In this document: one piece after another, positions 31,819 to 47,913 of the stretch
Layout: each line of letters starts with the position of its first letter
Position numbering within the stretch: position 1 is the first letter of the stretch
Made by a program: the position numbers and the translations under genes
The notes under the pieces: model-generated
The model's input: only the letters and a program-made list of their open reading frames with translations
Database searches by the model: none
Told to the model about the DNA's origin: nothing
DNA from: Actinomyces oris
GTDB taxonomy: Bacteria; Actinomycetota; Actinomycetes; Actinomycetales; Actinomycetaceae
Assembly (NCBI RefSeq): GCF_001929375.1
Contig: NZ_MSGO01000006.1
Span: forward strand, 1 to 64,000
Direction of reading: 5' to 3'
DNA length: 64,000 nucleotides

Positions 31819-33051
31819 TCAGTTGTTCTCGAACTGCTCGAGGTCCTCGGTGTGGGGGTGGCCGTCATCGGTCGAGCTGAGCCAAAAAACAGGGGCGTAC
31901 TTGGCGTTGACGTCCTCTGAGGGAACCCGCTTGAGCGCAAGGAGACCTGGCCCTGTGGGGAGGCCGACTTCTTTCATCAGGAGATCTGTGATGTCGGTGT
32001 GTTGACCTGAATCGGGATCCACGAGTTCCCGCCGTATGCTTCTCAATTGCTCATTCGAGGCTTGACGTTCTTGTATGCCGATGGGGTCGTAGATTTGAGC
32101 CAGTAATGATGACGCGGCAGCTGGATCGGAAAATCTTGATATCCAGCCCCCGGAGTAGACATCGATGACTCCGGAGACGGTGTCGATCGTTTGACCTGTG
32201 CCGCCGATGCGAGAAACCGTCATAGGGGTGCAGTGGTCGCTATTGCAGGGATCTCCATACTTGTAGTTACTCAAAAGAAAAGAGTTGTGGCTAGTGCCAA
32301 TAAGCCATTGTGTTGTGGGTGTCGTGACCGGAGGTGCGCCTTGGTTTAATAAAGACAGAACTGTCAACGTGGCGTTTCCGGACCCTCCGGGGAAAGGTTG
32401 GTCAGATGTTTCGACAGCAAGATGTGTGTCAGTCAGCGCGACACCAATGATTCTGCGAGTGATATGGGTTGTCCGGACAACCGTTCCGGTGGAGGCCTCA
32501 ACAACCGCAAAATAGGCTGTCGCTTTCGTTGAACTATTGAGCTTGAATACTACGTACTTCCCGTTGGGGCTGAGTGTCCAGTCGTTAGTAAGGGCGGTGG
32601 TCTTGGTTGATGGTGACTGTTCATTCGAAGAATCTGGGTGGGTCGGCGCATCAAGAGGATGCGTGAAATCGTTCACTCTGATCTGTGTTGCCCATACTAT
32701 GCTCTTGTCCGAGGATCGCCTTCCGAACACGGAGAGCGAGGGAGGTTCACCTCCGGTTCCCTCGTCTATGAACTGGCTTACTCCGGTGATGTAGTACCCG
32801 TTCCCGGCGATGGAGTTCTTCCACGATGTGAGGTTTGGGGGATTTTCGGTCGAATCTATCGACTCGGCCTTAGAAAGATCCAGTGATGTGACCTTAAGTT
32901 CAATGTTAGAATCTAGGGAACGATGGTAATGGCAGGTGCTGATTGTCAGCATAAGTGTGATCGCAAGCGCCAGGGCGGTGAATGCTCTGACGTCTCTACG
33001 TAGTTCCTGTTCCACGTATGAGTCGGACACGGCAGTGTGTGGGGAAGTCAT
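31819..33051 (-). CDS. Cassette array gene A1: propeller-like lipoprotein
   Basis: The 410-aa protein is the last gene of the array. A single N-terminal hydrophobic segment ends in ISTC, a weak lipobox with Thr before the Cys. The body alternates short beta-strand-like segments and shares with paralogues A2-A4 the features VEASTGTVVRT, LLNQGAPPVTTPTTQWLIGT and the closing WLSSTDDGHPHTEDLEQF. Its ATG overlaps the B1 stop by 4 bp, so translation is coupled. Base composition is visibly lower in GC than cassettes 2-5. No enzyme motif is recognised; an extracytoplasmic anchored protein is inferred. Confidence 0.72.
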   Translation of the reverse strand: MTSPHTAVSDSYVEQELRRDVRAFTALALAITLMLTISTCHYHRSLDSNIELKVTSLDLSKAESIDSTENPPNLTSWKNSIAGNGYYITGVSQFIDEGTGGEPPSLSVFGRRSSDKSIVWATQIRVNDFTHPLDAPTHPDSSNEQSPSTKTTALTNDWTLSPNGKYVVFKLNSSTKATAYFAVVEASTGTVVRTTHITRRIIGVALTDTHLAVETSDQPFPGGSGNATLTVLSLLNQGAPPVTTPTTQWLIGTSHNSFLLSNYKYGDPCNSDHCTPMTVSRIGGTGQTIDTVSGVIDVYSGGWISRFSDPAAASSLLAQIYDPIGIQERQASNEQLRSIRRELVDPDSGQHTDITDLLMKEVGLPTGPGLLALKRVPSEDVNAKYAPVFWLSSTDDGHPHTEDLEQFENN

Positions 33052-35255
33052 ACGTTCCTCTCTGTAGCCCCGTAGAGGCGATAGGTGGAGGAACGCTCGC
33101 TAGGGCCGCTGATATTCAGAAGGATAGTGGTGCATCCAGGAGTGCTCGTGAACTCCAGGTAAGGTCTCCGTTGGTCCTCTTTGTCTGCCATAAGTTGGTG
33201 CACTCCCTCAGAGAGAATGAGTGGACTAGTGTCAATAGTGTTGCCGTTAACTGGAATAGTGAGTTCTGGCGACCCGTCTGACGGACGTAGGAATATGTTT
33301 GCAATGATGGAGTCGTCGCTTGAACGTGGGGAGATCCCTACATGAGCAGAAGCTAAGCCCGGGTAGTGCGCTGCAGGTGTGGCTGTCCTGTTCGTGGGTG
33401 TGAATACTGTGGTGACTCGTGGAGTGTTCCAGGTCGTCATGACGTCATATATGGACTTGTCGGAACCGTAGTAAGGGTATGTCGACAGAGTTTGAGATGC
33501 GGTGGATGCGACTTCGTTAATGCCTGACGCTGCGCCAAGAGGAATTTTGTCTATGTCGTGAGAATCAGTCTTGGAGGCTTGGTCGATGTTGATGGCGTGT
33601 GCAGTAGGGTTCCCGTCATCGTCGCTTTGATTGGTGAACTGGGCGGCCCATCCAGAAATGATGACCGGATTTGCTCCCATGTCATCGCTGTGGCTTCGCG
33701 ACCGTAAGTTATCAACGACTATCGGATCAATGAGGAGATTATTGACACGGGTGCTTGCGGACGGGGTGGTGTCGGGAGCCACGGCGACGCTTGAGGTTCC
33801 TGCCCATTTTTCTTCATCTGCGTTCTCACTGTCTTGTTCGAAGGTTGCGACAATGAAGGTACTGTGGCCGGCTGCCCCCATGAATGTGGTATCAATGGCG
33901 TCTCTGTTGCTCCACAACTTCCTCCCGTCCTTCAAGGAGTATGCCGTGTCCCCATCGAGAAGGGCGGAATCTGTGAGCTGTAAGGTGCCACCGTGACTTA
34001 TATGGCGTATGACCGGAGCTCCTGTTCGAGTGTCAAACACTAGCGTCGTCTCTGGTGGGTCGGATGCTGACAAGTATTCATCAGAATCGATGACTAGATC
34101 ATCCGGGATTCGTGCCCTTAGGACGAGGTAGTTTCTATTCGGGCTCGTAAATACGAATGAAGCATGCAGGTGCGCCCCATACTCCCATAGGATGCTGCCG
34201 TGGGTCGGCTCCAATGCGGTGATTCCCTCGCTGCTGATCACAATAGGTCCTGTCGATCCGGCAATGACGTGATCGACTCCCACCATATCTTTGACCCAGC
34301 TCATTTTGGTGTCGATTGTTATTGGGATGGGAGGTGTCTTGTGTGGCGCGGCAGAGGTGTTGTGTGTGAAAGGTGTCACGAGGTAGTGTGCTGTTGATGT
34401 CAGCAATGAGAGTGCGATGATTGGCGTGAGTGATATGGCAGCAAGTTTTACCTTCGTGATCGGTTGGAGTTTTAATGATGCTTGCTTGGTTACCTTGACG
34501 CTGCTCTCGCCTGGCTGAGGACGTGCCGGGAGATACAGCTTGCGCCAGCGGGCCGGATTGCTGAACTGCCTAGGGTGTATGGAAAGTAGGGTTCGCACGC
34601 GATGCAGGATGATGCTCGTGCAGATGAGTGTTGTGAAGCCGAGGGTCTCTGCTGCGTGGCACAGGAAAATGGGGATGGAGATTCCCGACCGCTCGTATAC
34701 TGTCATCCAGTGGTGAATATTGATGCCTGCCGTCGCGGCACCAAGTAGTGCAATGAGGCTGACGATGACGATCATTGCCGTTCGCCTCAACTGATTGGCG
34801 ACCGCGGCGAAGGACCATAAGAGGAGTTGTAGTGCGAACATTGCGACGGTAGCCTGTACTGCCAAGTCGGAGAAAGGTCGCACTGATTTCATGTGAAGGA
34901 CGTCGATGTCGATCCCGTAGATCGAACTCAGTAATTTTGCGATACCCGACGAGGCAAACATCGCTAATACTCCGCCCCAGCGCAGGGCGCGCAGGGCGAG
35001 GACGCCGCGCGGTGGGAAGGACTCGCCCTCGTTCTTGCCTTTGGCCTCGCCGTTGCTTTCACCGGTGTCGGTTGCGGCCTGGTCGGCCTCAACGGCATCA
35101 CAGTTGGCGCTGCCTTCGGCCTCACCCGTGTCCGGCTCGGTCGAGGCCTCGTCGCTGGAGGCGGCTGCGCTCGGCTGGGTTCCGATCCCCTGGCTGCCGG
35201 GATCGGTGCTGTGCTGATCGGTGCCGTTGTCGTCGGCGTCGGGCGTAGTGGGCAT
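33048..35255 (-). CDS. Cassette array gene B1: five-helix membrane protein with extracytoplasmic propeller
   Basis: The 735-aa protein has a hydrophilic acidic N terminus of about 85 residues and then five hydrophobic helices (the last near VKLAAISLTPIIALSLLTST). About 450 residues of outside domain follow, with PQQ-like/beta-propeller signatures such as VIAGSTGPIVISSEGITALE, HGSILWEYGA, VFDTRTGAPVIRH and ALLDGDTAYSLKDGRKLW. ATG 35255 with GGGA upstream is preferred to ATG 35264; both lie in a leader resembling that of B5. GC content is clearly lower than in the other cassettes. It is separated from A2 by 101 bp, so it may have its own promoter. Confidence 0.75.
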   Translation of the reverse strand: MPTTPDADDNGTDQHSTDPGSQGIGTQPSAAASSDEASTEPDTGEAEGSANCDAVEADQAATDTGESNGEAKGKNEGESFPPRGVLALRALRWGGVLAMFASSGIAKLLSSIYGIDIDVLHMKSVRPFSDLAVQATVAMFALQLLLWSFAAVANQLRRTAMIVIVSLIALLGAATAGINIHHWMTVYERSGISIPIFLCHAAETLGFTTLICTSIILHRVRTLLSIHPRQFSNPARWRKLYLPARPQPGESSVKVTKQASLKLQPITKVKLAAISLTPIIALSLLTSTAHYLVTPFTHNTSAAPHKTPPIPITIDTKMSWVKDMVGVDHVIAGSTGPIVISSEGITALEPTHGSILWEYGAHLHASFVFTSPNRNYLVLRARIPDDLVIDSDEYLSASDPPETTLVFDTRTGAPVIRHISHGGTLQLTDSALLDGDTAYSLKDGRKLWSNRDAIDTTFMGAAGHSTFIVATFEQDSENADEEKWAGTSSVAVAPDTTPSASTRVNNLLIDPIVVDNLRSRSHSDDMGANPVIISGWAAQFTNQSDDDGNPTAHAINIDQASKTDSHDIDKIPLGAASGINEVASTASQTLSTYPYYGSDKSIYDVMTTWNTPRVTTVFTPTNRTATPAAHYPGLASAHVGISPRSSDDSIIANIFLRPSDGSPELTIPVNGNTIDTSPLILSEGVHQLMADKEDQRRPYLEFTSTPGCTTILLNISGPSERSSTYRLYGATERNV

Positions 35256-35356
35256 GGATCCCATTGTGGTGACCCAGTCGTGACTATGTCAGGCGTTTGT
35301 AAGGCCATCGCGCGGTTGAACGGACAAGGGAAGGAGTACTCCGGAGGGCCGGGCTA

Positions 35357-36307
35357 CTAGCGTTGCTTAGGTCGCTCCCAGTGCTTCAGGTCGGGAGCGG
35401 TGACGCCTTCAATGGTGCCGAGCTTTCGCCCCCGGGTATCGACGCGGGTGAGCGTCACCGACATGTCGTCACGCCGTTCGGTGGCCAGCGACTGTGGGGA
35501 CAGGAGCAGGGCGCCGTCGTCGATCCCGGTGAGCCACTGGTCGGTGGCGAAGGATGCTGGAGCGGCGGGCGTGTCGGTCAGGGAGTAGACGGTGACCGTC
35601 CCCTTGCCGTCCCCGGCCGGGTAGTAGGTCCGGGCGGTCTCCACGGCCAGAGAGTCGTTGGTCAGCACCTGCCCCAGGACGAGCCCCGAGACCTCCACGG
35701 TGCGGACCGTCTCCCCGGTGGCGGCATCGAGGACGAGGACGTGGGTGCGCTGAGCGGCGACGTCGAGCGGGTTGCGGTCGTCGTCCGAGTCGTGAAGCAC
35801 GGGCCTCATCTGCGGTGGACGCAGGACGAGCGAGACATAGCGGGCATCGGGGCTGACGACGGCGTAGCCTGCCGGCCGCCACGCGAGGAGACCGTGGGCA
35901 ACGTCCTGGGCAGAGCTGCCGTCGTCGTCGAGCCAGTTGACGACGGTCGGCTTGATCTCACGCGCCCACAGCACCGAGCCGTCCGAGCCGCGGTACCTGG
36001 CGACGATGGAGCTGTTCGCCCCCGACCGGTCCCGCCAGTTGCGTTGCGCCTTCTCCTTCTCCGTCAGTTCCTGAGCGGAGACGTGGAGGAAGTCCTCGCC
36101 GACGGGTGTGGAGTAGTAGTCAGTGCTGGTGGGAGTCTCCGAGATGCGCTCCTTGACCTGCGAGGCGCTCAGCGCGGTGGTCTCCACCTGCTGCAGCCGC
36201 GAGGGGGTCGGGCTGCAGGCGCTCATGGCCCCCGCGAACAGGACAGCCGCAGCCAGGGCCGAGCCGACGATCCGCCGGCGACGGGGGTGAGGGTGTGTGC
36301 TGGTCAT
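35357..36307 (-). CDS. Cassette array gene A2: truncated propeller-like lipoprotein
   Basis: The 316-aa paralogue of A1, A3 and A4 has a signal peptide ending in the lipobox MSAC. Shared segments include VVSPDARYVSLVLRPP, HVLVLDAATGETVRTVEVSG and LVLGQVLTNDSLAVETARTY. The protein stops after GTIEGVTAPDLKHW and lacks about 100 C-terminal residues present in the others, including the HPHTENLEQF tail. The reading frame is otherwise intact. The ATG overlaps the B2 stop by 4 bp. Confidence 0.75.
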   Translation of the reverse strand: MTSTHPHPRRRRIVGSALAAAVLFAGAMSACSPTPSRLQQVETTALSASQVKERISETPTSTDYYSTPVGEDFLHVSAQELTEKEKAQRNWRDRSGANSSIVARYRGSDGSVLWAREIKPTVVNWLDDDGSSAQDVAHGLLAWRPAGYAVVSPDARYVSLVLRPPQMRPVLHDSDDDRNPLDVAAQRTHVLVLDAATGETVRTVEVSGLVLGQVLTNDSLAVETARTYYPAGDGKGTVTVYSLTDTPAAPASFATDQWLTGIDDGALLLSPQSLATERRDDMSVTLTRVDTRGRKLGTIEGVTAPDLKHWERPKQR

Positions 36308-38379
36308 GACGAGGCTCCTGAGATGCCGAAGATGCGGAAGGAGTGGGAGCCCTTGTCCGGGCCGGTGGCCATGATGACGAGGGTCGTTCCCGGCGTGCTC
36401 AGGGTGGTGAGCAGCGGATTCGACGACGGTGAAGGATCATCGATGGTCCACAAGTGCCGAGTCCCGGGTGGGTAGTAGGTGGAGCCTGCGGGGACGTCCA
36501 CCGTCGTCGGGGTCCGCTCCCCGCTGCTGACGCTCAGGACGCCGCCACCACCGGACTCGGCGCGGGCGAGGCCGGCGTAGGACAGGATTCCGGCCTCCTG
36601 CGCCGAGTGGGAGACGGCCCGGGTCTGTGGGTCGAAGATCGCGGCGACGGCTGTACCGCCCTCAAAGTCCTTAGGGGACGGCGGCGCATCGAGGACCGAG
36701 TCGCCCTTTGCCCGTCGAGGCAGAGTCGTCAGCGTGCCCGTGGCGCGGGAGGCTGTGCTGTTGGTTCCGGAGGTCAGGCCCAGGTCGTAGGTGCTGGTGT
36801 CGGCACCGGCGACGCCGGCCATGGCATCGAGGTTGACGGCCTGCGCCGCCCAGCCCGTCGGGGAGGTCTGGAAGTCGATCGGTGTGGGTGTCTGCGTGAA
36901 GGCGGCCACCCATCCGCCGACGACGAGAGGACTGCCCCGGCCATCGGTGACCAGTGGGGCGCTCTCACGGCGCGTGGCGGGGGAGGTGTCCGACATGAGT
37001 GTGTAGGTCGCGTACGGTCCGCGCCGGTCTGGTTCCCCCTCGGGACTGCGCGGTATGCCCCCGAGGAGGAAGGTGGAATGACCGGCCGTGCCCCAGTAGG
37101 GCCGGGTATCAGGTGACACGGAGACGTCCTCCTTGTCGATGGACCACAGTCGGGAGCCGTCGGTGAGCGAGTAGCCGGTGGCGCCGTTGAGCAGGACGGA
37201 GTCGGTGAGTTGGAGAACGCCTTCCTGCATGAAGCCTTCATAGGTGACGCGCCCGGTCACCGAATCGAGGACCACCACCAGGGATTCGATGCTCATTCCC
37301 TCCGGCTGCTCGCCGTCGGTGGAATCGAGGGTCACCGCGAGGTGACGGCGGTCCGGGCTCGAGTGGCTGCGGATGAAGCGCGCATGCTTGCGCGGATAGG
37401 TCCACCGGATCGAGCCGTCGGCGGGATTGAGACCGACGACGCCGTCGCTGCTCAGGACGACCGGCCCGGCAGCACCGGCCACCACCTCCGCCATGTTGTG
37501 GATGTCCTGCGACCAGGCCGCCGTCGAGGCGAAGGACCGGGGCAGTGCCGGAAGCGCAGAGGTGTCGATACTCGCAGCGGTCGACGGCGTGACCCGCCCC
37601 CAGACCAGGTGTGGGACCGTGGCCGCTGCCCCGAGGGCGAGCGGCGGAATGACGATGAGAACGACCGCGCCGAGGACGGAGCGCCACGAGGGCCGGGGCA
37701 GCCGAATCCTCCGCAGGCCTCCCAGCCGCGCCCTCAGGTGCTGCTTCTGCGACGGCGGGACATAGGTGGCCCGGGTGGCACGAACCAGGAGATCGGTAGC
37801 CGCCAGCAGGCCCATGCCCAGCGCCCCCATCGCCAGCGTGAGCAGCTGGTTGATACTGACCGAGGTGCTGCGTAGCTGGGCGTGCCACAGGCGAAGAAGG
37901 ACGACGGTGAAGCCGCCCGAGAACACCAGGAAGCACAGCGGTTGGAAGAGGACTGTCTTCCTGACGAGCGCTCGCGGTGAGCTGGGATAGCTCTTCAAGG
38001 CAGAACGCGCGGTCTCTGCCCACTTGAAGTAGCCGGCGATCCATATGAGTACGGCCAGGCCGCCAACGAAGCCTCCGACCCCCTTCATCGCGTGACCGGG
38101 ATCCCTCATCCCGCTCTGGTAGACGAGGAACAGGACGGCCATCGCCCCGACCGCCAGGAGCCAGCCGAGGCGCAGGGCCCGCAGCATCGTGAGGATGCGC
38201 CGCGGAGGATTGGGGACCGACCCGTCTGAGGCGCCAACGGATCCAGCGGTCTCCGCGGCCTCGGTGGCCTCGGCGGACTCAGCGGAGCCGGCGGACTCGG
38301 CGGACTCGGCGGACTCCGCCGAGCTGGCGGGTGCAGGGGACTCGGTGTCCTGGGACTGGTCGTTGTGCTGATCGGTCAT
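36304..38379 (-). CDS. Cassette array gene B2: five-helix membrane protein with extracytoplasmic propeller
   Basis: This 691-aa member of the B family has an N terminus made of Ser/Ala/Glu repeats (SAESAESAGSAESAEATEA). Five hydrophobic helices follow, then the outside domain with EVVAGAAGPVVLSSDGVVGL, NPADGSIRWTY, VLDSVTGRVTYEG and VLLNGATGYSLTDGSRLWS. The C-terminal strand STPGTTLVIMATG is shared by all B proteins. ATG 38379 has ACGGAAGACAGCACG upstream. It begins 19 bp after the A3 stop and is likely in the same transcript. Confidence 0.8.
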   Translation of the reverse strand: MTDQHNDQSQDTESPAPASSAESAESAESAGSAESAEATEAAETAGSVGASDGSVPNPPRRILTMLRALRLGWLLAVGAMAVLFLVYQSGMRDPGHAMKGVGGFVGGLAVLIWIAGYFKWAETARSALKSYPSSPRALVRKTVLFQPLCFLVFSGGFTVVLLRLWHAQLRSTSVSINQLLTLAMGALGMGLLAATDLLVRATRATYVPPSQKQHLRARLGGLRRIRLPRPSWRSVLGAVVLIVIPPLALGAAATVPHLVWGRVTPSTAASIDTSALPALPRSFASTAAWSQDIHNMAEVVAGAAGPVVLSSDGVVGLNPADGSIRWTYPRKHARFIRSHSSPDRRHLAVTLDSTDGEQPEGMSIESLVVVLDSVTGRVTYEGFMQEGVLQLTDSVLLNGATGYSLTDGSRLWSIDKEDVSVSPDTRPYWGTAGHSTFLLGGIPRSPEGEPDRRGPYATYTLMSDTSPATRRESAPLVTDGRGSPLVVGGWVAAFTQTPTPIDFQTSPTGWAAQAVNLDAMAGVAGADTSTYDLGLTSGTNSTASRATGTLTTLPRRAKGDSVLDAPPSPKDFEGGTAVAAIFDPQTRAVSHSAQEAGILSYAGLARAESGGGGVLSVSSGERTPTTVDVPAGSTYYPPGTRHLWTIDDPSPSSNPLLTTLSTPGTTLVIMATGPDKGSHSFRIFGISGASS

Positions 38380-38398
38380 CGTGCTGTCTTCCGTGCCG

Positions 38399-39643
38399 CT
38401 ACTTGCTGGTGAACTGCTCGAGGTTCTCGGTGTGGGGGTGGCCGTCGTCGGCGGAGCTGAGCCAGAAGACCGGGGCGGAGGTCTTCTTCCCGCTCGCGTC
38501 AGTGGTCGTCCGGCTGACCACCAGCCCGGGCCCGGTCGGGACGCCCTGGTCTTCGACGGTCGTTTCGGTGACGTCCAGGCTGCTGCCGGTGGAGACGTTG
38601 ACGACCTGCCGCGTCAGGCCCTGCAGGGCGGCGTTGAGAGAGGGCGGTTTCTCCTTCTTGCCCGTCGCCGCGTGGTTGGCCGAAGCGTTGACCGCTGCCG
38701 GATCACTGACCTGCGTGACCCAGCCGCCGGGGTGCACCGCCTCAACACCGTTGATGGTTGCGCGGATATCCCCGGAGGCATCCACCTGGGTGATGGTCAA
38801 TGCACCGGAGACGCTTGCCGGGGAAGGCGCCTGCGGTGACAGCAGCAGCGAGTCGGTCCCGGCCCCCGCGAGCCACTGATCAGTGTCGAATGACGAGGGC
38901 GTGGCGGACGGGTCGTCCAGCCCGAAGACACGGACCTGGCCCGTCCCCTGACCTCCGGGGAAGTAGTCGTAGGCGATCTCCACGGCCAGAGAGCTATTCG
39001 TCAGACCCTGCCCCAGGACCACTCCGCTGAGCTCCTCGGTGCGCACCACGGCGCCGCTGCTGGCGTCCAGGACGACGACGTAGGACGCCTGCTCGGCGAG
39101 CCTCCCCTCGAGCTGCCCGCGATGCGGCGTGAGGATGAGGGAGACGCGGCGCCCGTCGGGGCTGACGACGATCTCTCCGCTGGTACGGGACTGCAACAGG
39201 TATGCGAGGTTCCGCTGCGGGACCTGTGCGTCCCTCAGCGCACTGAGCGATGCACCCGGTGGCGTGATCGTTACCGCCCACTTCAGGGCGCTGTCTGATC
39301 GGTTCCGGCTGACGAGGGTGGTTCCCAAGGGCTTGCGATGGTTCTTCTCCCAGTTGATGAGCACCGTGATGGTGCTGTTGCTAGCGGGAAGCGTTTCGAA
39401 CTCGACGTCCGGGTCCGTGTTGGCGTCGGCCTCAAGGCTCGTGACCTGATCGGCGGTGAGCGCGGTGGCCTTGACAGTGGCCTCCTGCGTGGCCCGGTCC
39501 GAGGCGGAGGGCTGCTGACCTGTGCAGGCGCTCAACGGGAGGGCCAGCAGCGCTGCGGCAAGGAGCAGTCGGGGGGATCGACGTCGACGGCGCGCAGGCG
39601 CAGCGAACGTGCGGTGGGGGTGCCGGGCGGCTTGCTGACTCAT
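38399..39643 (-). CDS. Cassette array gene A3: propeller-like lipoprotein
   Basis: The 414-aa protein has a twin-Arg-rich N terminus, a hydrophobic stretch LLLAAALLALPL and the lipobox LSAC. The body contains VVSPDGRRVSLILTPH, VVVLDASSGAVVRTEELSG, LGQGLTNSSLAVEIAYDYFP, TINGVEAVHPGGWVTQVSDP and the full tail SSADDGHPHTENLEQFTSK. The strand and turn pattern matches the propeller domain of the B proteins, suggesting A arose from, or pairs with, B. The ATG overlaps the B3 stop by 4 bp. Function is unknown. Confidence 0.78.
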   Translation of the reverse strand: MSQQAARHPHRTFAAPARRRRRSPRLLLAAALLALPLSACTGQQPSASDRATQEATVKATALTADQVTSLEADANTDPDVEFETLPASNSTITVLINWEKNHRKPLGTTLVSRNRSDSALKWAVTITPPGASLSALRDAQVPQRNLAYLLQSRTSGEIVVSPDGRRVSLILTPHRGQLEGRLAEQASYVVVLDASSGAVVRTEELSGVVLGQGLTNSSLAVEIAYDYFPGGQGTGQVRVFGLDDPSATPSSFDTDQWLAGAGTDSLLLSPQAPSPASVSGALTITQVDASGDIRATINGVEAVHPGGWVTQVSDPAAVNASANHAATGKKEKPPSLNAALQGLTRQVVNVSTGSSLDVTETTVEDQGVPTGPGLVVSRTTTDASGKKTSAPVFWLSSADDGHPHTENLEQFTSK

Positions 39644-41757
39644 GACGAGGCTCCTACCAGTCCGTAGAGACGAAGGCGTGTGCCGGTGGCCTGGCTCTCG
39701 TCAGTGGGGCGCAGAAGCACGACGGTGACGCCCGGCGCGCTGAGTGCGCTGATGCCGTCGTTACCCCCTGGATTATTGACGGAGAAGTCGAGAAGACCGG
39801 GGTTGCGGCCGCTTGCTCGTGAATCGAAGGAGACTGTGCCGTTCTCCAGAGGGATGGAGGTGGCTTTCGACTTGTCTCCCGACTGAAGGCTGATGCGCCT
39901 CTGGCCGTCGTCGGCCCGGGTGACCCCGACCGCTGTGACGAGCCCCGGGTCCTGGGAGGCTGCCAGCACAGCGCGTGTCCTGGGGTTGAAGGTGGTGGCG
40001 ACTGTGGAACGGTTCTTCCAGCCATCGGGGACGGGACTATCGTCCGGCTCGACCGAGTCGGGTGCGGTCTGCGGCAGGACAGCCAGCCTCCCGGAGAGCC
40101 GGGAGGCCATCGGGGCGATGCCGAGGGTCTGGCCCAGGTCGTAGGTGTGGGTGTCGGCGCCGGGAGCTTTCGCCAGGGCGTCAAGGGAGACGGCCTGGGC
40201 ACGGTGAGTCTTCGAGTAGTCCCAATCGACGTCGGTGGACTCGTCCTTCGTGGCCTCGGGGTAGGTGACCGTCCAGCCCTCGACGATGAGCGGCTCCTGG
40301 TTGGCGAAGGCGACCAGAACATCCCTGACGATTCCGCGGGGGTTGGTGTCCGGGACGAGCGTGAGACGGCCGACCCCGTTGTGGCTTCCTCCATTGTCTT
40401 CTTTTGTGAGAATGAGGCTGGCGTGCCCTGCTGTACCTGTGTACTGGTGGTCCTCCTCGGAGAGATCGACGTCGACGTCGCCGAGCTGCCACATCACGGA
40501 GTCGTCGGCCAGTGAGTAGACGGTGCCGCTGGCCAGGAGGACGGAGTCGGTGAGCTGGACGGCCTTGCCGTCGTGGAAGTGCTCGTTGGTGACGCGTCCG
40601 GTCACGGTGTCCAGGACGATGGTGAGGGTCGGCTCCAGACCGAAACCGCCGTCGGACTTGTCTTGCGGGGATTCCAGCTCCCCGAGTGTCAGGGCGACGT
40701 GGCGCCTGTCCGGGCTGGTGATGAGATAAGGGGGCTCACCGCGGACCCCGTCCAGCCTTCCCCCGTACTGGGCGAACTTCCTGCCTTGACGGTGGTAGTC
40801 CCAGCGAATCGACCCCGTGGAGGGATCCAGACTGATGAGGCTGTCATCGGTGAGGACGAGGGGCCCGGCGGCCCCTGCGGTCACGTCCAGCACGGAGGGG
40901 ATGTCGTGGGTCCAGGTCGCCTGAGACGGGAAGGAGGTCGGGTAGGAGGGCAAGGTGGCGGGGGCGGCCACAGGGATCGGGAGGGATCGGTCCCAGTCAT
41001 ATGCGAGGTAGGCGCTTCCGCTCAGGAAGAGGGACGGGGTCAGGAGGATCACCACCAGAACGATGCGTGAGCTCCAGGAGTGGGTGCCCCGGAGGCGAGT
41101 GGGCAGAAGGTGTGGGATACGGATGGACCTGTCACGGCGCCGTGGACGGCGCGAGGAGGCCTGTGCGACCTCGGGGAAGAAGGACCGGGTGACACGCTGG
41201 AGAAGATCGAAGGCGAAGAAGGCGCCCAGCCCCAGGGCCGCTATCGCGAAGGCGAGCAGCTCGCCTGCGCTAGCGTCCAGCGACATGAAGATGTCGTGCC
41301 ACAGGCCCAGCGTGCCTCTGGCGCTGAGCAGGCCGCAGGCGGCCACCCCGGCCACGGGCAGGAGCCGCTTGATGATGCGCCGGCAGGTCCTCACCCGATG
41401 CTGCCGGTCGACCCAGTACTCGGCGGGCTCCTGCCAGGCGAGAATGCCGATCCCCCACAGGACGAGCGCCGCGACCAGTGGCGCGAGGCCGAGGTAGAGG
41501 AACACCCACCGCATCGTCAGATCAGTGCGCCACATCAGGTAGAGGCCGGCCGCCACGAGGACGGAGAGCATTGAGCCGACCTTCAGCGCCCAGAAGAGGC
41601 CCTCGATCCGCCGCGACCAGACCTGACGGCGCTCTTGAGGTGTGCGGGGGCGCCGACGGCGGGCAAGGGCTGATAGCGAGGAGTAGGGATTCTCTGAGGT
41701 GAGGGAAGTGGGAGCCGCGAGAGGCTCTGCGTCCTCTCCGGGTCGCTGATCGGTCAA
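39640..41757 (-). CDS. Cassette array gene B3: five-helix membrane protein with extracytoplasmic propeller
   Basis: The 705-aa protein probably starts with TTG 41757, with AAGGACACCACA just before it. Five helices are clear, from VGSMLSVLVAAGLYLMW to IVLVVILLTPSLFLSGSAYL, placing the C terminus outside. The outside domain carries DVTAGAAGPLVLTDDSLISL, DPSTGSIRWDY, VLDTVTGRVTNEHF, VLLASGTVYSLADDSVMWQL and SAPGVTVVLLRPT. These TG-x-x-x and W-rich repeats suggest a PQQ-like beta-propeller, although no PQQ ligand set is evident. It begins 19 bp after A4. Confidence 0.8.
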   Translation of the reverse strand: MTDQRPGEDAEPLAAPTSLTSENPYSSLSALARRRRPRTPQERRQVWSRRIEGLFWALKVGSMLSVLVAAGLYLMWRTDLTMRWVFLYLGLAPLVAALVLWGIGILAWQEPAEYWVDRQHRVRTCRRIIKRLLPVAGVAACGLLSARGTLGLWHDIFMSLDASAGELLAFAIAALGLGAFFAFDLLQRVTRSFFPEVAQASSRRPRRRDRSIRIPHLLPTRLRGTHSWSSRIVLVVILLTPSLFLSGSAYLAYDWDRSLPIPVAAPATLPSYPTSFPSQATWTHDIPSVLDVTAGAAGPLVLTDDSLISLDPSTGSIRWDYHRQGRKFAQYGGRLDGVRGEPPYLITSPDRRHVALTLGELESPQDKSDGGFGLEPTLTIVLDTVTGRVTNEHFHDGKAVQLTDSVLLASGTVYSLADDSVMWQLGDVDVDLSEEDHQYTGTAGHASLILTKEDNGGSHNGVGRLTLVPDTNPRGIVRDVLVAFANQEPLIVEGWTVTYPEATKDESTDVDWDYSKTHRAQAVSLDALAKAPGADTHTYDLGQTLGIAPMASRLSGRLAVLPQTAPDSVEPDDSPVPDGWKNRSTVATTFNPRTRAVLAASQDPGLVTAVGVTRADDGQRRISLQSGDKSKATSIPLENGTVSFDSRASGRNPGLLDFSVNNPGGNDGISALSAPGVTVVLLRPTDESQATGTRLRLYGLVGASS

Positions 41758-41776
41758 TGTGGTGTCCTTCGTGCCG

Positions 41777-43066
41777 CTACTTGCTGGTGAACTGCTCGAG
41801 GTTCTCGGTGTGGGGGTGGCCGTCGTCGGCGGCGCTGAGCCAGAACTGCCGGGTGCTGTTGTTGTCGTCGGCGGCCTTCTGACTGATGAGCAGGCCGGGG
41901 CCGGTGGGGACGCCGACCGACCTGGCCTCTCCTTCCGTGAGGTCGTGCGTGCTTCCGGAGTTCAGGTCGACGATCTGGGTGGGCAGGGCGTCCCAGGCGG
42001 CTTGAGCCTGGTCATCGTTCTTCCCGACCGTGCTGGCGGCGAGTGCGGCCGCGGCGGCCGGATCGCTGAAGCGTTGAAGCCATCCACCGGGGTGGATCTG
42101 GTTGACACCGGTGATGGTCCGGCGCACTTTGCCGTCGGTGCCCATCTGGGTCACCGTGAACGGGCGGAGCCTGGTGCTCCAGTCGTTGCCGGCGGAAGGG
42201 GAGTACGGGGACAGGAGGAGTGAGTCCCGGGAGGCGCCGATGAGCCAGTGGTCGCTGGGGATCGTGGACGGTTTGCCCGCAAGGTTGCTCAGCGGATAGA
42301 CGGAGATGACTCCCTGACCCTCGGCTCCCGGGTAGTAGTTGTGGGCGGTCTGGATGGCCAGGCTGTCATTGGTGAGGACCCGCCCCAGGATCAGTCCGGA
42401 GACCTCCACCGAGCCTTCGAGCGTGCCCGTCTCGGCGCTGAGGACGACGACGTAGGTGCGCTGGGCCGAGAAGTCGTTGTCCTCAGCGGTCCGGTGCGGT
42501 TGGAGAATGAGCGAGATGTGTTGCCCGTCGGGACTGACGACGCCCACACCGGAGGACTCCTGCTTGAGAAGGTCGTAGGTCTGCGTCTGGGTGGTCGAGT
42601 TGCGGTAACGGTCACCCAGGTCGCTGGTTTTGAGAATGGGGTGATTGAGGCGGGTGGCCCACTGAAGGGTCTTGGTCTTCGGTTCGTCGTCGGTGCTCCC
42701 AGGTTTGTCGCTGGTGACGACTCCTGAGGACAGAGAGCCATCATCTGATTCGGGTGGTGAGTTGTCCGCGCTGACCGTCCCGTAGTGGATGGGCAGGTCG
42801 CGGACATAGACGGAAGAGAAGCTCTTCCGCTCGGACTCCACCTGATGTGCACTGAGCGGTGTGACGGAGACTCCCGCCGACGGCGTGGTTGCCGCGGTCT
42901 TTGGGGATGAGGAGCCGCAGCCGGACAGTGGCAGTGAGACGAGGAGTGCTGTCACCAGGGCGCGGGCGGCGCGGCTCGCCGCCGAACCGGTGCGGTGACG
43001 GGGCATCGAGGGCATGGGGGTGGGCGTGGGGCTGGGCTTCGTCGTGTGTGTCGTGTGGCTCATCAT
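41777..43066 (-). CDS. Cassette array gene A4: propeller-like lipoprotein
   Basis: The 429-aa member of the A family has a signal peptide ending in the lipobox LSGC followed by GSSSPK. Shared segments are VVSPDGQHISLILQPH, YVVVLSAETGTLEGSVEVSG, LTNDSLAIQTAHNYYPG, TGVNQIHPGGWLQRFSDPAA and the tail SAADDGHPHTENLEQFTSK. The last 63 bp of coding plus leader are identical to the A3/B2 junction, evidence of recent recombination. ATG 43066 overlaps the B4 stop. Confidence 0.78.
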   Translation of the reverse strand: MMSHTTHTTKPSPTPTPMPSMPRHRTGSAASRAARALVTALLVSLPLSGCGSSSPKTAATTPSAGVSVTPLSAHQVESERKSFSSVYVRDLPIHYGTVSADNSPPESDDGSLSSGVVTSDKPGSTDDEPKTKTLQWATRLNHPILKTSDLGDRYRNSTTQTQTYDLLKQESSGVGVVSPDGQHISLILQPHRTAEDNDFSAQRTYVVVLSAETGTLEGSVEVSGLILGRVLTNDSLAIQTAHNYYPGAEGQGVISVYPLSNLAGKPSTIPSDHWLIGASRDSLLLSPYSPSAGNDWSTRLRPFTVTQMGTDGKVRRTITGVNQIHPGGWLQRFSDPAAAAALAASTVGKNDDQAQAAWDALPTQIVDLNSGSTHDLTEGEARSVGVPTGPGLLISQKAADDNNSTRQFWLSAADDGHPHTENLEQFTSK

Positions 43067-45168
43067 CGGGTTTCTCCTCCCACGGCGTAGATGCGAGAGG
43101 TCCCGGAGTGCTGCGTGCCGGTCCGAACCATGATGATGGTGGCGCCGGGAGTACTGACGGCGGTCACCAGACTGTCTTCATCGTTGCCGTTGGCCAGTGC
43201 CAGATCCTTGAGCTGAGGGTTGTAGAAGATGTCTCCCGGCGGAGCGAATGTTGTCCCCGGCGCCAGGGGGACTGATACGCCCGATGACCCGTTTGCGGGC
43301 TTGACGCTGATCCGTCCCTCGACGGCTTCACCGACGGCGGCCTGGGTGATGCCGACGGAGGCGGCGGCCAGCCCCGGTGTCTGTGCCGCCGTCGTCACTG
43401 CCAGGGTCCGAGGGCTGAAGACGGAGCCGACGGTGCCGGAGGCCTCCCACAGGAAAAGGTCCGAGTTTGACTTTTTCTTAGGCTTCTCGGCTGGGAGGGG
43501 CGGGAAGGTCACGAGGGCTCTGGCCTTCATGGAGGCGATGTCGTTGACCGCAGAGGTCATGCCGAGGTCGTAGGCCCGGGTATCTGCTCCGGGAACACCG
43601 GCCAGGCCGTCGAGGCTGACGGCTTGGACCTCCCGGTCCTGCGGGTCGTTCTCCGTGGACCACGACGGCCTGGACTGTTTCCCACGAGGCTTGTCAATGA
43701 CCATCCAGCCGTCGATCACCAGAGGAACGTCCGCCTTGTTGTACTCAAAGTAGATACGTCCGTCTGACCGGGGGGTGAGGGTCGGGAGCTCATGGGTGGC
43801 GGTGGGATCACTCTGCGGGACCGCAACGTCATGGTATGTCGCGGGGCGACTCAGGACGAAGGCCGAGTGACCGGCTGCGCCGGAGTAGGCGGCCTGGGCG
43901 GCCTGAGAGCCTGAGGCGCCGTCAACGGTGAGCTTTCGAAGGTCCCACATGGTTGACCGGTCCTTCAGCGAGTAGGCGGTGGTGCCGTAGAGGACCGCCG
44001 AGTCGGTCAGTTGGAGGGGACTGTCGCCGCGCCAGTCGAAGACCGTGGCTCCGGTGACGGTGTCCAGGACAACGGTGGTCTTCGGCGTCGAGGCACTGAG
44101 ATTTCCGTCCGTTCCGGTCATGGACGTGTAGACGTCCGGCTCATCGAATCTCAACGCCATGTAGCGGCCGTCGGGGCCGGGGATGACGCCCGTCGCTGTC
44201 GAGCCCTTGCGCTGGTAGCTCCACCGGTTCGAGCCGTCTCGGGGGTCGAGCCCGGCAGCTCCATCGGAGGTGAGAACGATGGGGCCGGCGGCTCCGGCGA
44301 TCACGTCCTGTCCGCTCGCCAGGTTCTTGGTCCACATCTCCTTCGAGGCGAAGCCGGTGGGGTACGACGGCAGCTGGTCGGCGTTCACCGACGGGCCCGT
44401 GGCCTGGGTGATGGTGGGCCGGCCGGACGCCGTCGGGTGGCCGAGGTAGGGGACGGCGAAGGAGGCGACGAGCGCCACGACGGGAACGAGGGCGAGCAGG
44501 GCGCGAGGGCCCAGGGTCCGGAGGGAGGATCGCCACGGTCGCCGCAGCTGATCGCGCAGGTCGTGTATCCGCGCCGAGATCGGATTGGGAACGTACAGCG
44601 ACTCGCCGGCATAGGGCTCGAATAGGGCGCGTGAGGCCCGCAGAAGAATGTTTGTGGACAGCAGCAGGGCGAAGGCGGCGATCCCCATGATGTAGGCCAG
44701 GGCCTCGCCGAGGCTGACCGCGTAGGTGGAGAACACGGACCTCCAGAGCCTGACGACTGGGAGGGCGGCGTACACGGCAACGGCCGGGACCAGGACAGCG
44801 GGTAGGAGCATGAGCGCTGAGCGGGCCGCGGTCAGGCCCCTGTTGCGCGTGCTGCGGCTGTCACTGCGTGGCTCGGGCCAGAGGACGACCCCGCACGCCC
44901 ACAGGAACACGGTCAGCGCCAGGCCCTTCCAGGTCAGCTGAGGGAGCTTGAACAGCACCTTGGCGATCCCGCTGCGGCAGATGACGGAGAGGGCGACCGC
45001 GGCCACCATACTGAGGAAGCAGCCGAAGCGCAGCGACGTCAGGGCCGCGATGATGCGCTGATGGCGGCGTCTGCGCCGGTTGAGGGCCGCATCGTCCTGG
45101 TCGGCGCTGTGGCCGGAAGCGGAGGGGGAGTCGTCGATGGGTTGGTCGACGTCGGCGGCGGGCGGCAT
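43063..45168 (-). CDS. Cassette array gene B4: five-helix membrane protein with extracytoplasmic propeller
   Basis: The 701-aa member of the B family starts at ATG 45168, where MPPAADVD resembles the B5 start and GAAGGACCCCAACGCC provides a ribosome site; a GTG at 45189 is possible. Five helices precede the outside domain, which has DVIAGAAGPIVLTSDGAAGL, DPRDGSNRWSY, VLDTVTGATVFDW, AVLYGTTAYSLKDRSTMWDL and VSTPGATIIMVRTG. It begins 36 bp after the A5 relic stop. Confidence 0.78.
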   Translation of the reverse strand: MPPAADVDQPIDDSPSASGHSADQDDAALNRRRRRHQRIIAALTSLRFGCFLSMVAAVALSVICRSGIAKVLFKLPQLTWKGLALTVFLWACGVVLWPEPRSDSRSTRNRGLTAARSALMLLPAVLVPAVAVYAALPVVRLWRSVFSTYAVSLGEALAYIMGIAAFALLLSTNILLRASRALFEPYAGESLYVPNPISARIHDLRDQLRRPWRSSLRTLGPRALLALVPVVALVASFAVPYLGHPTASGRPTITQATGPSVNADQLPSYPTGFASKEMWTKNLASGQDVIAGAAGPIVLTSDGAAGLDPRDGSNRWSYQRKGSTATGVIPGPDGRYMALRFDEPDVYTSMTGTDGNLSASTPKTTVVLDTVTGATVFDWRGDSPLQLTDSAVLYGTTAYSLKDRSTMWDLRKLTVDGASGSQAAQAAYSGAAGHSAFVLSRPATYHDVAVPQSDPTATHELPTLTPRSDGRIYFEYNKADVPLVIDGWMVIDKPRGKQSRPSWSTENDPQDREVQAVSLDGLAGVPGADTRAYDLGMTSAVNDIASMKARALVTFPPLPAEKPKKKSNSDLFLWEASGTVGSVFSPRTLAVTTAAQTPGLAAASVGITQAAVGEAVEGRISVKPANGSSGVSVPLAPGTTFAPPGDIFYNPQLKDLALANGNDEDSLVTAVSTPGATIIMVRTGTQHSGTSRIYAVGGETR

Positions 45169-45204
45169 GGCGTTGGGGTCCTTCGTCACGGGGTGGCTTG
45201 GGCG

Positions 45205-45385
45205 TTACTTGGTGGAGAACTGCTCGAGGTTCTCGGTGTGGCGGTGGCCGAGGCCTCGTTCGAGCCGCTGCCCTTCGGGGCGGTGTGCTGCCGTCCTTGA
45301 CCTCCTCGGTGTGAACAGCCTTTCCGGTCTCGGTCTCGATGACGACGACGTGGGCGCGCTGGTCTGCAACGGTGAAGTCCCTCAT
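45205..45385 (-). pseudogene. Cassette array gene A5: relic of a lipoprotein gene
   Basis: Only pieces of an A gene remain. An ATG overlapping the B5 stop by 4 bp opens a frame reading DFTVADQRAHVVVIETETGK, equal to an internal part of A2-A4 (near residue 190). After a few codons the frame is lost. The family tail follows in another frame, HRHTENLEQFSTK, ending at the TAA at 45205-45207. The lipobox, the N-terminal half and most of the C-terminal half are gone. The relic shows that cassette 5 once had a normal B-A pair and that internal deletion happens in this array. Confidence 0.85.
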
Positions 45386-47490
45386 CCTGTCGCTGCTCCC
45401 TCCGTGAGGCCGAAGAGGCGATAAGTGTGAGGGGTGTGGAACTTCTGGGCGGCGGAGTTGAGGATGATGATGTTGGCGCCCGGCGCGTGAAGTGCGGACA
45501 CCTCCGAGTAATGCTGGAGCGCGGTGGCGATATCCTTCATGTCGGGGTTGTAGCGAAATGAGCCCGGCGTGTGGAAAGTACTTCCTGGTGCGATGGTGAA
45601 GGAGACTTCCTCCCCGCCGCCCATGGGGGCGACTCGCATTCTTGCCTCGAGGCTGTCGGGTGTACCCGCAGGTGATATCCCAACCGCTCGGACGAGGCCC
45701 GAGGGCTGGTCCATGGGCAGAAGCTTCTGCGTGGAGGGGTCGAAGACCGCTGAGACTGTCGTGGGATCGACCCAGGAGCAGAAGGAGTGCTCATTGAAGG
45801 AGTCTCGCGCGGAAGGTGAGGGCGTCCCTGGAAGTATGGCGAGTTTTCCCGTGGTCATTGACGCGGGGACGTTGATGGTGACACCTCGGCCCAGGTCATG
45901 CTTTTGCTGCTGAGAGTCGGCCTCGGATGCTAGAGAATCCAGGGTGACGGCTTGCATCTCCCAGCCCTGGTTGAAGGAACCATTAGTGCTTGTCGGAGCC
46001 TCGTCGCTATAGATGGCCGTCCAACCATCAATGCAGATCGCATTCGGAGATTTTATCCTCATTGCTGTCGGAGCAGAGGTGCGGATCTGCTTGAAATCGG
46101 CCTGCGAGACCAGGGACAGGCGGAGGTATGAGATTCTGTTCTCATCTAGGCGATTTTCTGATTCAGTGTCGATGTTGATGATGAAGGTCGAGTGCCCTGC
46201 TGTCCCTGAGTAGGGCGTTGCTCGGCCGAAGGGGTCGATGTCGTGCTCATCGAAATCCCACAGCTCGACGTCACTGCCGATGCTGTAGATCGTGTTCCCG
46301 TCCATGATTGCAGAATCGGTGATCTGAAGGGGACCGTCATCTGAGAGGCGGTCGTTGAGTACCTGGCCGGTGATGGTGTCCAGCACGATCGTGATCGCCG
46401 ACTGGCCGATGCCTTCTCCGTCTCTTGTCTCCCCGGGGCCGGCCATGCGGAAGGTGACGTAACGATGGTTGGGGCTGACTGCCAGTGTTCGTTCGTGCTC
46501 CTCACCCATCAGGTGCGTGAGGGCTCCACGAAGTCTGAGATACGTCGCGTCCTGACGCACATAGCTCCACAGGACGCTTCCGTCCACGGGGTTGAGACCC
46601 ATGACGCCGTCGGCTGTGTGGACGACAGGGCCCGCGGCTCCCGCCGCAATATCGAGCGCATTCTTAATGTCCTTGATCCAGGCGGGCTTGCCGGCCAAGG
46701 AGGCGGGGTAGGCGGGAAGGCTCTTGGCGGCTGAAGACGGAGCCAGCCTCTGGATCGGCTTCTTGCTCCGGCTTAACGGAAAGACGGCCGCCCCGGCGAG
46801 GATGACAGAGGGCGCCAGGACCAGGGCCGCACGTGTAAGAGTCCGACGCCGCGGGCCCCGGAGACGCTGGACCGACTTTCGGGGCCGCCGGAGGCGTGCC
46901 CACCACCTCTTGCGAAGGAGCTCCGGGGGCAGTACGGCGGCCCGGAGCGTGCGAAGGAGAATGTCAGTGACGCTTAGAAGCGCCAGACCCGCCGTGCCCA
47001 TGGCGATGGCGATGAGGTCCACGGTGTTGACCCCGGTGCGGAAGAGCACCGAGGACCATCTCGACAGGCAGTCCCGGATCATCTCGGGGGTCAGCGCCAC
47101 GATTCCGCCGATCGCCAGGATCGCAACCGCCGTGCGTATGACGGCGATGCGGGAGCCGTGGACAGGGTCGCGGAACCGCGAGGGCCGAGGGCGGACAATG
47201 ACGGTCGCCATCCAGAGAGTGCCGATCATGGCGGGAGGCATGCCCCACAGGGGGAAGGTGCGAACGCCGCTCGGCCAAGCGAAGAAAAGCACGACGGAGC
47301 CGATGACGCTGAGCAGCGCCCCGACTCTCAGCGCCGGCAGGGCGTGCAGAAGGCGTTGTGCGATGCCTACGGCCCCTCGTCTGGTCTCCCGCGCTTCGGT
47401 GTCAAAGTCCTGAGTGGTGGACGTGCTGGAAGTGTTGGCCGGCGCCGTGTCGTCGTGATCGGCGTCGGCGGGAGAAGTCGCGGGAGGCAT
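45382..47490 (-). CDS. Cassette array gene B5: five-helix membrane protein with extracytoplasmic propeller
   Basis: This is the first gene of the array. I take ATG 47490 (702 aa), with GGAGGTC directly upstream; the frame is open to 47649 but that leader has no homology. Five helices are followed by DIAAGAAGPVVHTADGVMGL, NPVDGSVLWSY, VLDTITGQVLNDRL, AIMDGNTIYSIGSDVELWD and HAPGANIIILNSA in the outside domain. The leader around the start (CCACCACAATGG) resembles that of B1, so B5 and B1 may each begin a transcription unit. Its A partner is only a relic. Confidence 0.78.
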   Translation of the reverse strand: MPPATSPADADHDDTAPANTSSTSTTQDFDTEARETRRGAVGIAQRLLHALPALRVGALLSVIGSVVLFFAWPSGVRTFPLWGMPPAMIGTLWMATVIVRPRPSRFRDPVHGSRIAVIRTAVAILAIGGIVALTPEMIRDCLSRWSSVLFRTGVNTVDLIAIAMGTAGLALLSVTDILLRTLRAAVLPPELLRKRWWARLRRPRKSVQRLRGPRRRTLTRAALVLAPSVILAGAAVFPLSRSKKPIQRLAPSSAAKSLPAYPASLAGKPAWIKDIKNALDIAAGAAGPVVHTADGVMGLNPVDGSVLWSYVRQDATYLRLRGALTHLMGEEHERTLAVSPNHRYVTFRMAGPGETRDGEGIGQSAITIVLDTITGQVLNDRLSDDGPLQITDSAIMDGNTIYSIGSDVELWDFDEHDIDPFGRATPYSGTAGHSTFIINIDTESENRLDENRISYLRLSLVSQADFKQIRTSAPTAMRIKSPNAICIDGWTAIYSDEAPTSTNGSFNQGWEMQAVTLDSLASEADSQQQKHDLGRGVTINVPASMTTGKLAILPGTPSPSARDSFNEHSFCSWVDPTTVSAVFDPSTQKLLPMDQPSGLVRAVGISPAGTPDSLEARMRVAPMGGGEEVSFTIAPGSTFHTPGSFRYNPDMKDIATALQHYSEVSALHAPGANIIILNSAAQKFHTPHTYRLFGLTEGAATG

Positions 47491-47611
47491 GACCTCCATT
47501 GTGGTGGGCCGCCCCGGATCATGCGGCAGAATTCGTGAGGCAGTTCTTCCTGCGCCGCTCGAATGGGCCGGTCTGAAGGCGCCCGTAGCCGTGCCGACGC
47601 CTTCCCTGCCA

Positions 47612-47682
47612 TCGCGGTCGTGCCTTATGTCGCGCGATCGAGGGTTCAAGGTGCGATCGCGAGACCTAACCTACGACCGCGA
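47612..47682. repeat. Inverted repeat with GACCGCGA arms upstream of clpC
   Basis: The arms TCGCGGTCGT (47612-47621) and ACGACCGCGA (47673-47682) enclose a second palindromic pair around CGCGATCG/CGATCGCG (47633 and 47654). The sequence AAGGCACGACCGCGA on the opposite strand resembles the fragment at 25117 and the units at 58392, so these three loci share a repeat family. Confidence 0.6.
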
Positions 47683-47730
47683 CCGGTGGGGCGGGGCGCC
47701 AGGCGGAGGCTGAGCCCCGCGACTCCTCAT

Positions 47731-47751
47731 CTTGAGTCGACCCGGCTCAAG
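47731..47751. promoter_or_regulatory. HAIR-type HspR binding site upstream of clpC
   Basis: The sequence CTTGAGT-N7-GCTCAAG matches the actinobacterial HspR inverted repeat (CTTGAGT-N7-ACTCAAG) with a single difference. It lies about 165-185 bp upstream of clpC. HspR represses heat-shock genes such as dnaK and clpB, so clpC here is probably heat-inducible through HspR. Confidence 0.7.
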
Positions 47752-47760
47752 GCTTACTCA

Positions 47761-47774
47761 CGCCTACCGCGAAC
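47761..47774. promoter_or_regulatory. ClgR-type binding site upstream of clpC
   Basis: CGC-CTACC-GCGAAC matches the inverse of the ClgR core GTTCGC-N5-GCG, and ClgR activates clpC and clpP genes in Streptomyces and Corynebacterium. It lies 9 bp from the HspR-type site, about 140 bp upstream of the clpC start. Confidence 0.6.
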
Positions 47775-47913
47775 AGGGGCATGGCCTGGGCGTCGGCCTG
47801 GTTAGCCTTGTCAGCACGTGCTCTCAGCGCCATCTCTCCCCGGCGCTGCGACATCCCTCGCCACCACCGGACGAGCGGTCCCGCACTGAGCGCGTGCCGA
47901 GGAGGAATTACTG

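Follow-up and report, generated by a model that had tools for sequence, protein, structure and literature searches.

A tandem array of paired genes for predicted membrane-anchored beta-propellers in Actinomyces oris, with a candidate recombination hinge at the 3' end of one partner

The minus strand of a 64,000-nucleotide stretch of Actinomyces oris DNA (contig NZ_MSGO01000006.1, positions 1 to 64,000, referred to here as the window) carries, at 31819-47649, a tandem array of two-gene cassettes in which a gene for a putative membrane protein (B) is followed by a gene for a lipobox-bearing protein (A). Open reading frames (ORFs) confirmed the order given in a preliminary description made from the DNA letters: five B genes, four A genes and one A relic. 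The array has rbsK on one side and clpC on the other, and the adjoining clpC (866 amino acids, aa) is 99.5% identical to that of genome G020. Cassettes are numbered here from the clpC side and the earlier gene names, which ran the other way, are given in brackets; types are those of the clustering described below.

45382..47649, minus strand: B of cassette 1 (B5; type B8), 755 aa by the longest ORF, profile match from 47529, A partner lost
45205..45385, minus strand: A relic, type A7, opening at 45385; two pieces match about nucleotides 554-639 and 1166-1235 of a 1260-base stretch of genome G021 that holds type A7
43063..45189, minus strand: B of cassette 2 (B4; type B5), 708 aa
41777..43066, minus strand: A of cassette 2 (type A9), 429 aa, lipobox read by eye
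41792..41824, minus strand: homogenised A-tail block of cassette 2, exact 33-mer
39640..41757, minus strand: B of cassette 3 (B3; type B10), 705 aa, modelled as five helices and then a beta-propeller
38399..39643, minus strand: A of cassette 3 (A3; type A10), 414 aa, lipobox read by eye, modelled as a beta-propeller
38414..38446, minus strand: homogenised A-tail block of cassette 3, exact 33-mer
36304..38379, minus strand: B of cassette 4 (B2; type B9), 691 aa
35357..36307, minus strand: A of cassette 4 (A2; type A5), 316 aa, the conserved short form, which lacks the tail
33048..35264, minus strand: B of cassette 5 (B1; type B1), 738 aa
31819..33051, minus strand: A of cassette 5 (type A1), 410 aa, lipobox read by eye
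31834..31866, minus strand: A-tail block of cassette 5, one mismatch to the 33-mer
47650..47913, minus strand: intergenic region between the array and the divergent clpC, putative place of the array promoter

As had been stated, the B stop overlaps the A start by 4 bp in all five pairs, relic included. The short A-to-B gaps (15-36 bp for most) held for the gaps of 15 (relic), 19 and 19 bp but not for the fourth, which is 92 bp by the longest ORFs. Judged from position, the array promoter likely lies in 47650..47913 and is shared with the divergent clpC; a promoter scan found no promoter-like match in this region, and promoter and terminator scans stood near background (3 promoter-like matches against 1.5 expected and 6 terminator-like against 7.1 expected). 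The relic belongs to the A type that stands intact in G021, and its tail is present in a frame other than that of its start.

We found that the B proteins (691-755 aa) consist of a five-helix membrane part and an outer domain, and that identity to B3 is 25-35% in the other four window B, as identity to A3 is 33-41% in the other three window A. Five hydrophobic helices had been proposed for all B proteins; this agrees with the predicted model of B3, in which five long helices precede an all-beta region, and with simple hydropathy for three of the five B, but hydropathy gave four helices in one B and three in another. As for the propeller fold, the predictions of B3 and A3 alone both look like beta-propellers and structure comparison supports this for both. 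Furthermore, the A and B profiles align with each other as homologues. Together with the models, these data support A and B being homologous beta-propellers. No Pfam, NCBIfam or PADLOC family among the curated models fits these proteins, and phmmer against solved structures returned two chance-level matches for B3 and none for A3.

Variability along A is highest in the N-terminal part and lowest in the tail, DDGHPHTENLEQF, which is found in three of the four window A (once with D for N) and in the relic but, contrary to the preliminary description of it as a shared feature, is absent from A2. The short A form, at 35357-36307 in the window, lacks the tail and the last strands of the propeller and is kept in seven of the eight A. 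oris-group genomes examined. Local truncation of A2 was ruled out, as the short form is common to these seven genomes and the ratio of nonsynonymous to synonymous change (dN/dS) is 0.37-0.38 in two ortholog pairs.

Our data indicate that cassettes evolve as units. Across 18 of the 30 retrieved regions, B was followed by A 61 times and A by B 48 times, with six BB and one AA adjacencies; 59 of the 61 BA gaps are below 200 bp and the other two are split by an insert of 9.6-9.7 kb. Among 59 cassettes the A and B distance matrices correlate with r 0.909, above all of 1000 within-genome partner shuffles (mean r 0.288, maximum 0.407), and the nearest neighbour agrees between A and B in 41. Clustering within the A. 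oris group gave 11 B types and 10 A types with one A type per B type, except that type B4 has types A3 and A4; types B1 and B2 share type A1, and type B11 is a split-gene fragment. Cassette order is largely common to the group, with two cassettes swapped in G035. The arrays between clpC and rbsK hold one to nine cassettes: nine in G021 and G001, eight in G022, five in the window (one with its A lost), four in G020, two in G018, one in G040 and at least five in G035, where contig ends interrupt the array. Both flanking genes are near the array in seven genomes of the group, and clpC lies about 4 kb off in G018. The type map, adjacency and distance match support the proposal of amplified and diversified B-A units, and at the sequence level cassettes appear to be old types that are gained and lost whole. 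In 12 hand-chosen ortholog pairs dN/dS was 0.22-0.54 for B, 0.24-0.61 for A, 0.03-0.10 for clpC and 0.17-0.24 for rbsK (0.28 for another flanking gene), so that A and B values (0.22-0.61) are above clpC and mostly above rbsK. A comparison for LacI, with 57 codons aligned, was not used.

What might such pairs do? Beta-propellers are binding platforms, and the best reading of two homologous propellers encoded by overlapping genes, one held by a five-helix anchor and the other by a lipid, is a two-part complex outside the membrane. In the mechanism that we propose, sequence and models give each cassette a membrane protein B, whose disordered N-terminus is followed by five helices and then, at the C-terminal end, by a beta-propeller, and a protein A that has a lipobox and a propeller homologous to that of B; the two products of one cassette would join into a complex on the outside of the membrane, and each cassette type would recognise a different partner, be it a ligand, an envelope component or a foreign surface. 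Variation that is highest in the N-terminal part of A and between types fits different partners. The cassettes would be old types gained or lost whole, with the 3' end of A as the hinge at which complete cassettes are joined while each B keeps its own A, and the array would be a repertoire trimmed and extended by recombination. We give this reading, a diversified set of envelope-anchored B-A complexes with a hinge at the A tail and a partner for each type, a probability of roughly 45%, based on sequence comparison and predicted models. It is a more doubtful proposal that an array of paired membrane-anchored propeller complexes with their own targets constitutes a new kind of modular recognition repertoire in Gram-positives, edited at a hinge formed by the A 3' end and the partly similar B 5' end so that intact pairs are exchanged, added and excised.

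The main rival, suggested by analogy and in our view unlikely, holds that the pairs are envelope-assembly scaffolds whose propellers keep a glycosyltransferase or division enzyme at the membrane, with paralogues serving different enzymes. It stays close since an actinobacterial propeller, Rv3035 of mycobacteria, belongs to a wall-enzyme complex; it is reported to work with FecB and AftB and to hold the enzyme at the membrane. However, a single genus spans 0 to 10 B matches per genome, counting fragments, which is odd for a core assembly factor, and unrelated propellers match as well or better.

For the recognition repertoire, the candidate hinge would account for how the array changes. We found that about the last 60 bp of A are homogenised between paralogues, synonymous sites included. 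The tail is carried by 31 of 40 paired A in eight genomes; the nine tail-less ones comprise seven short forms, one gene broken near its end and one at a contig end. Codon entropy at conserved residues is 0.41 in the tail (16 columns), as against 1.35 over the remainder of A (33 columns; p 3e-6); in B it is 1.38 (50 columns). Over their last 26 codons, A paralogues of one genome are identical at 83% of bases, compared to 34-70% in other windows of the gene. Exact tracts of at least 20 bp between different A types of one genome number 92 (121 pairs), of which 83 end no more than 90 bp from the 3' end. In B there are 20 such tracts (136 pairs). Of these, 13 begin within 400 bp of the gene start, and some of the 13 lie inside the preceding A tail since longest-ORF starts were used. 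The 33-mer, at up to three mismatches, has four sites in the genome, all within the array and the relic included, which rules out a site spread over the genome. Beyond the A. oris group the tail is absent, except in G004, where it is altered.

G020 shows the junction of a whole-cassette deletion inside the A-tail block: the leader and first codons of the first B pass straight into an A tail, and the switch falls inside a short stretch alike in both. Taken together, these sequence data are most simply explained by the 3' block of A serving as a recombination hinge that joins complete cassettes, and exchange at the A tail would add or remove whole cassettes and keep partners together. Selection may also act on the tail peptide, and is compatible with recombination there. 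That an essential peptide and strong codon bias, rather than DNA recombination, preserve the tail is improbable. The tail is the most conserved peptide of A and is ordered in the A3 model to residue 410 (predicted local distance difference test, pLDDT, of 90 and 86 for the block and 60 for the last four residues), as such an explanation would have it. Yet the same amino acids are coded more freely elsewhere in A: codon entropy in the tail is 0.21 for Leu (0.57-1.83 elsewhere), 0.35 for Ser (0.99-1.93) and 0.21 for Thr (1.12-1.27), with little or no such contrast for Asp, Gly and Pro. The exact tracts of up to 67 bp between A types and the deletion junction in G020 also speak against it.

Some arrays contain inserted genes. 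Between one B of G001 and its A lies a 9.6 kb insert with a Mu-type transposase, a heavy-metal P-type ATPase, a multicopper oxidase, a two-component system and DUF6803, and the B beside it carries a stop codon. G020 has a 9.7 kb insert in the same place with four genes of equal length, gene families having been scanned in G001 and gene lengths compared in G020. This metal-resistance-like island occurs in two A. oris genomes, at L052:2255-11690 (G001, contig C25) and in region 15081-24615 of L057 and L058 (G020, contig C4). The array of G029 holds a transposase and, within L062:9080-15216, a GmrSD-type gene, a DUF6571 gene and an overlapping 278-aa gene without a Pfam family. DUF6571, which looks like an expanded family, is found in 27 of 49 genus genomes with up to 19 matches each, and among the matches listed it lies inside an array, by eye, in G029 alone. 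By hand count, B and DUF6571 occur together in 21 genomes, B only in 10, DUF6571 only in six and neither in 12, a loose association (Fisher p 0.036, uncorrected for kinship). Six genomes with A and B have no DUF6571 match (G001, G018, G020, G021, G042 and G047), and DUF6571 was dropped as a toxin-neighbour explanation on account of its spread over 27 genomes, of these six genomes and of its position, among the matches listed, inside no array but that of G029. That the array is an immunity repertoire, each pair shielding the membrane from a contact-delivered or secreted toxin, is very unlikely: a tandem set of diversified genes for membrane proteins and lipoproteins that come and go as units, the genes inside the G029 array and the loose association would suit it, but DUF6571 (itself of unknown function) is absent from those six genomes, no toxin family was named among 20 scanned proteins in or near the arrays of five genomes, and PADLOC gave no match for the nine window proteins (E 0.01).

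We found B profile matches in 31 and A profile matches in 21 of the 49 genus genomes. Either occurs in 32: 20 genomes have the two together, 11 have B without A and one has A without B. Homologues are therefore not always alone, in line with the preliminary idea of a pair. Family-wide, A was matched in 31 of 213 genomes, several marginally, and B, with up to five candidates per genome scored, in 30 of 200. Order-wide, B was matched in 15 of 396 genomes (at most two scored per genome), five of them Actinomyces, and the ten others had E values of 1.7e-7 or worse. Re-scoring of six such regions gave two single genes with five helices and a propeller-like part (one at E 0.28), one transporter-like protein and three regions without a match to the larger profile. 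The two lone proteins (L116:2934-4820 and L118:2503-4785) are possible distant B relatives in the order. None of 123 viral stretches matched by A tail patterns, a search that covers tail-bearing A, was a relative, and B3 had no match among 72,556 plasmid records. In six other genomes arrays or B genes share their retrieved stretch with a phosphoglucomutase gene. B-like genes of 784-818 aa stand head to head with a pullulanase gene at L067:7154-9610 (G000, contig C32) and L084:7312-9666 (G014); these are perhaps an older unpaired form.

Several observations weigh against envelope-anchored B-A complexes with partners of their own. Eleven genus genomes have B matches without an A match, including G010, G024 and G028 with their tandem B-like genes, which indicates that B can manage without an A visible to the A profile. 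These three arrays may be an A-less or diverged version of the B-A array; the family-wide search placed one marginal A match (E 2.6e-4) inside the B array of G028. In these arrays (L064, L068 and L070, respectively) the tandem B-like genes mix five-helix and one-helix forms. In G078 and G178, both of other genera, A precedes B instead of following it; G078 (genus g8) has short A and B in an array in which A overlaps the start of the next B. Five hydrophobic helices are seen as well in some proteins of G017, G178 and G013 that score with the A profile, which means that not every A is a lipoprotein. The A-B distance match follows equally from linked duplication as from binding, the exact tail tracts are partly expected from the conserved tail peptide, and dN/dS of A and B is never above 1 gene-wide, which gives no sign of an arms race.

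In G021, about 30 kb of a 3.0 Mb genome goes to a diversified protein-pair family unnamed in the curated libraries searched. If the pairs are recognition complexes, they are candidates for differences in partner binding, phage sensitivity or envelope make-up among related Actinomyces, and the hinge offers a direct, testable account of how the array changes without mixing partners.

Literature searches aimed at a tandem B-A propeller system found no description among the papers listed, in agreement with the preliminary statement that none was known. BamB and the PQQ_2 family (PF13360) resemble the A and B models in their beta-propeller fold and differ in that B carries a five-helix membrane part and the genes here form tandem pairs; PF13360 scored at best 15.2 bits among the nine window proteins and 20.5 in a relative, short of the gathering cut-off of 27.6, and to our knowledge no outer-membrane assembly machine is expected in Actinomyces. 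The Rv3212 family (NF050114) aligns weakly over the first part of the B propeller, with 13-19 bits in four window B (best 18.9) and 16-22 in three relatives (best 22.1) against a cut-off of 150, and the available parts of its descriptions mention neither tandem pairs nor a five-helix part. Sequence searches of solved chains with B3 and A3 (E up to 5) did not return Rv3035, and we know of no paired tandem array for it. BtuG and XusB, surface lipoprotein beta-propellers that bind ligand, are Foldseek matches to A3 but differ in working with outer-membrane transporters and in an identity of 9-11%. The staphylococcal lpl genes, a tandem paralogue array of surface or immunity lipoproteins, share with the Actinomyces array diversified tandem copies in variable number, whereas the array described here repeats a unit of two overlapping genes that has a homogenised 3' block.
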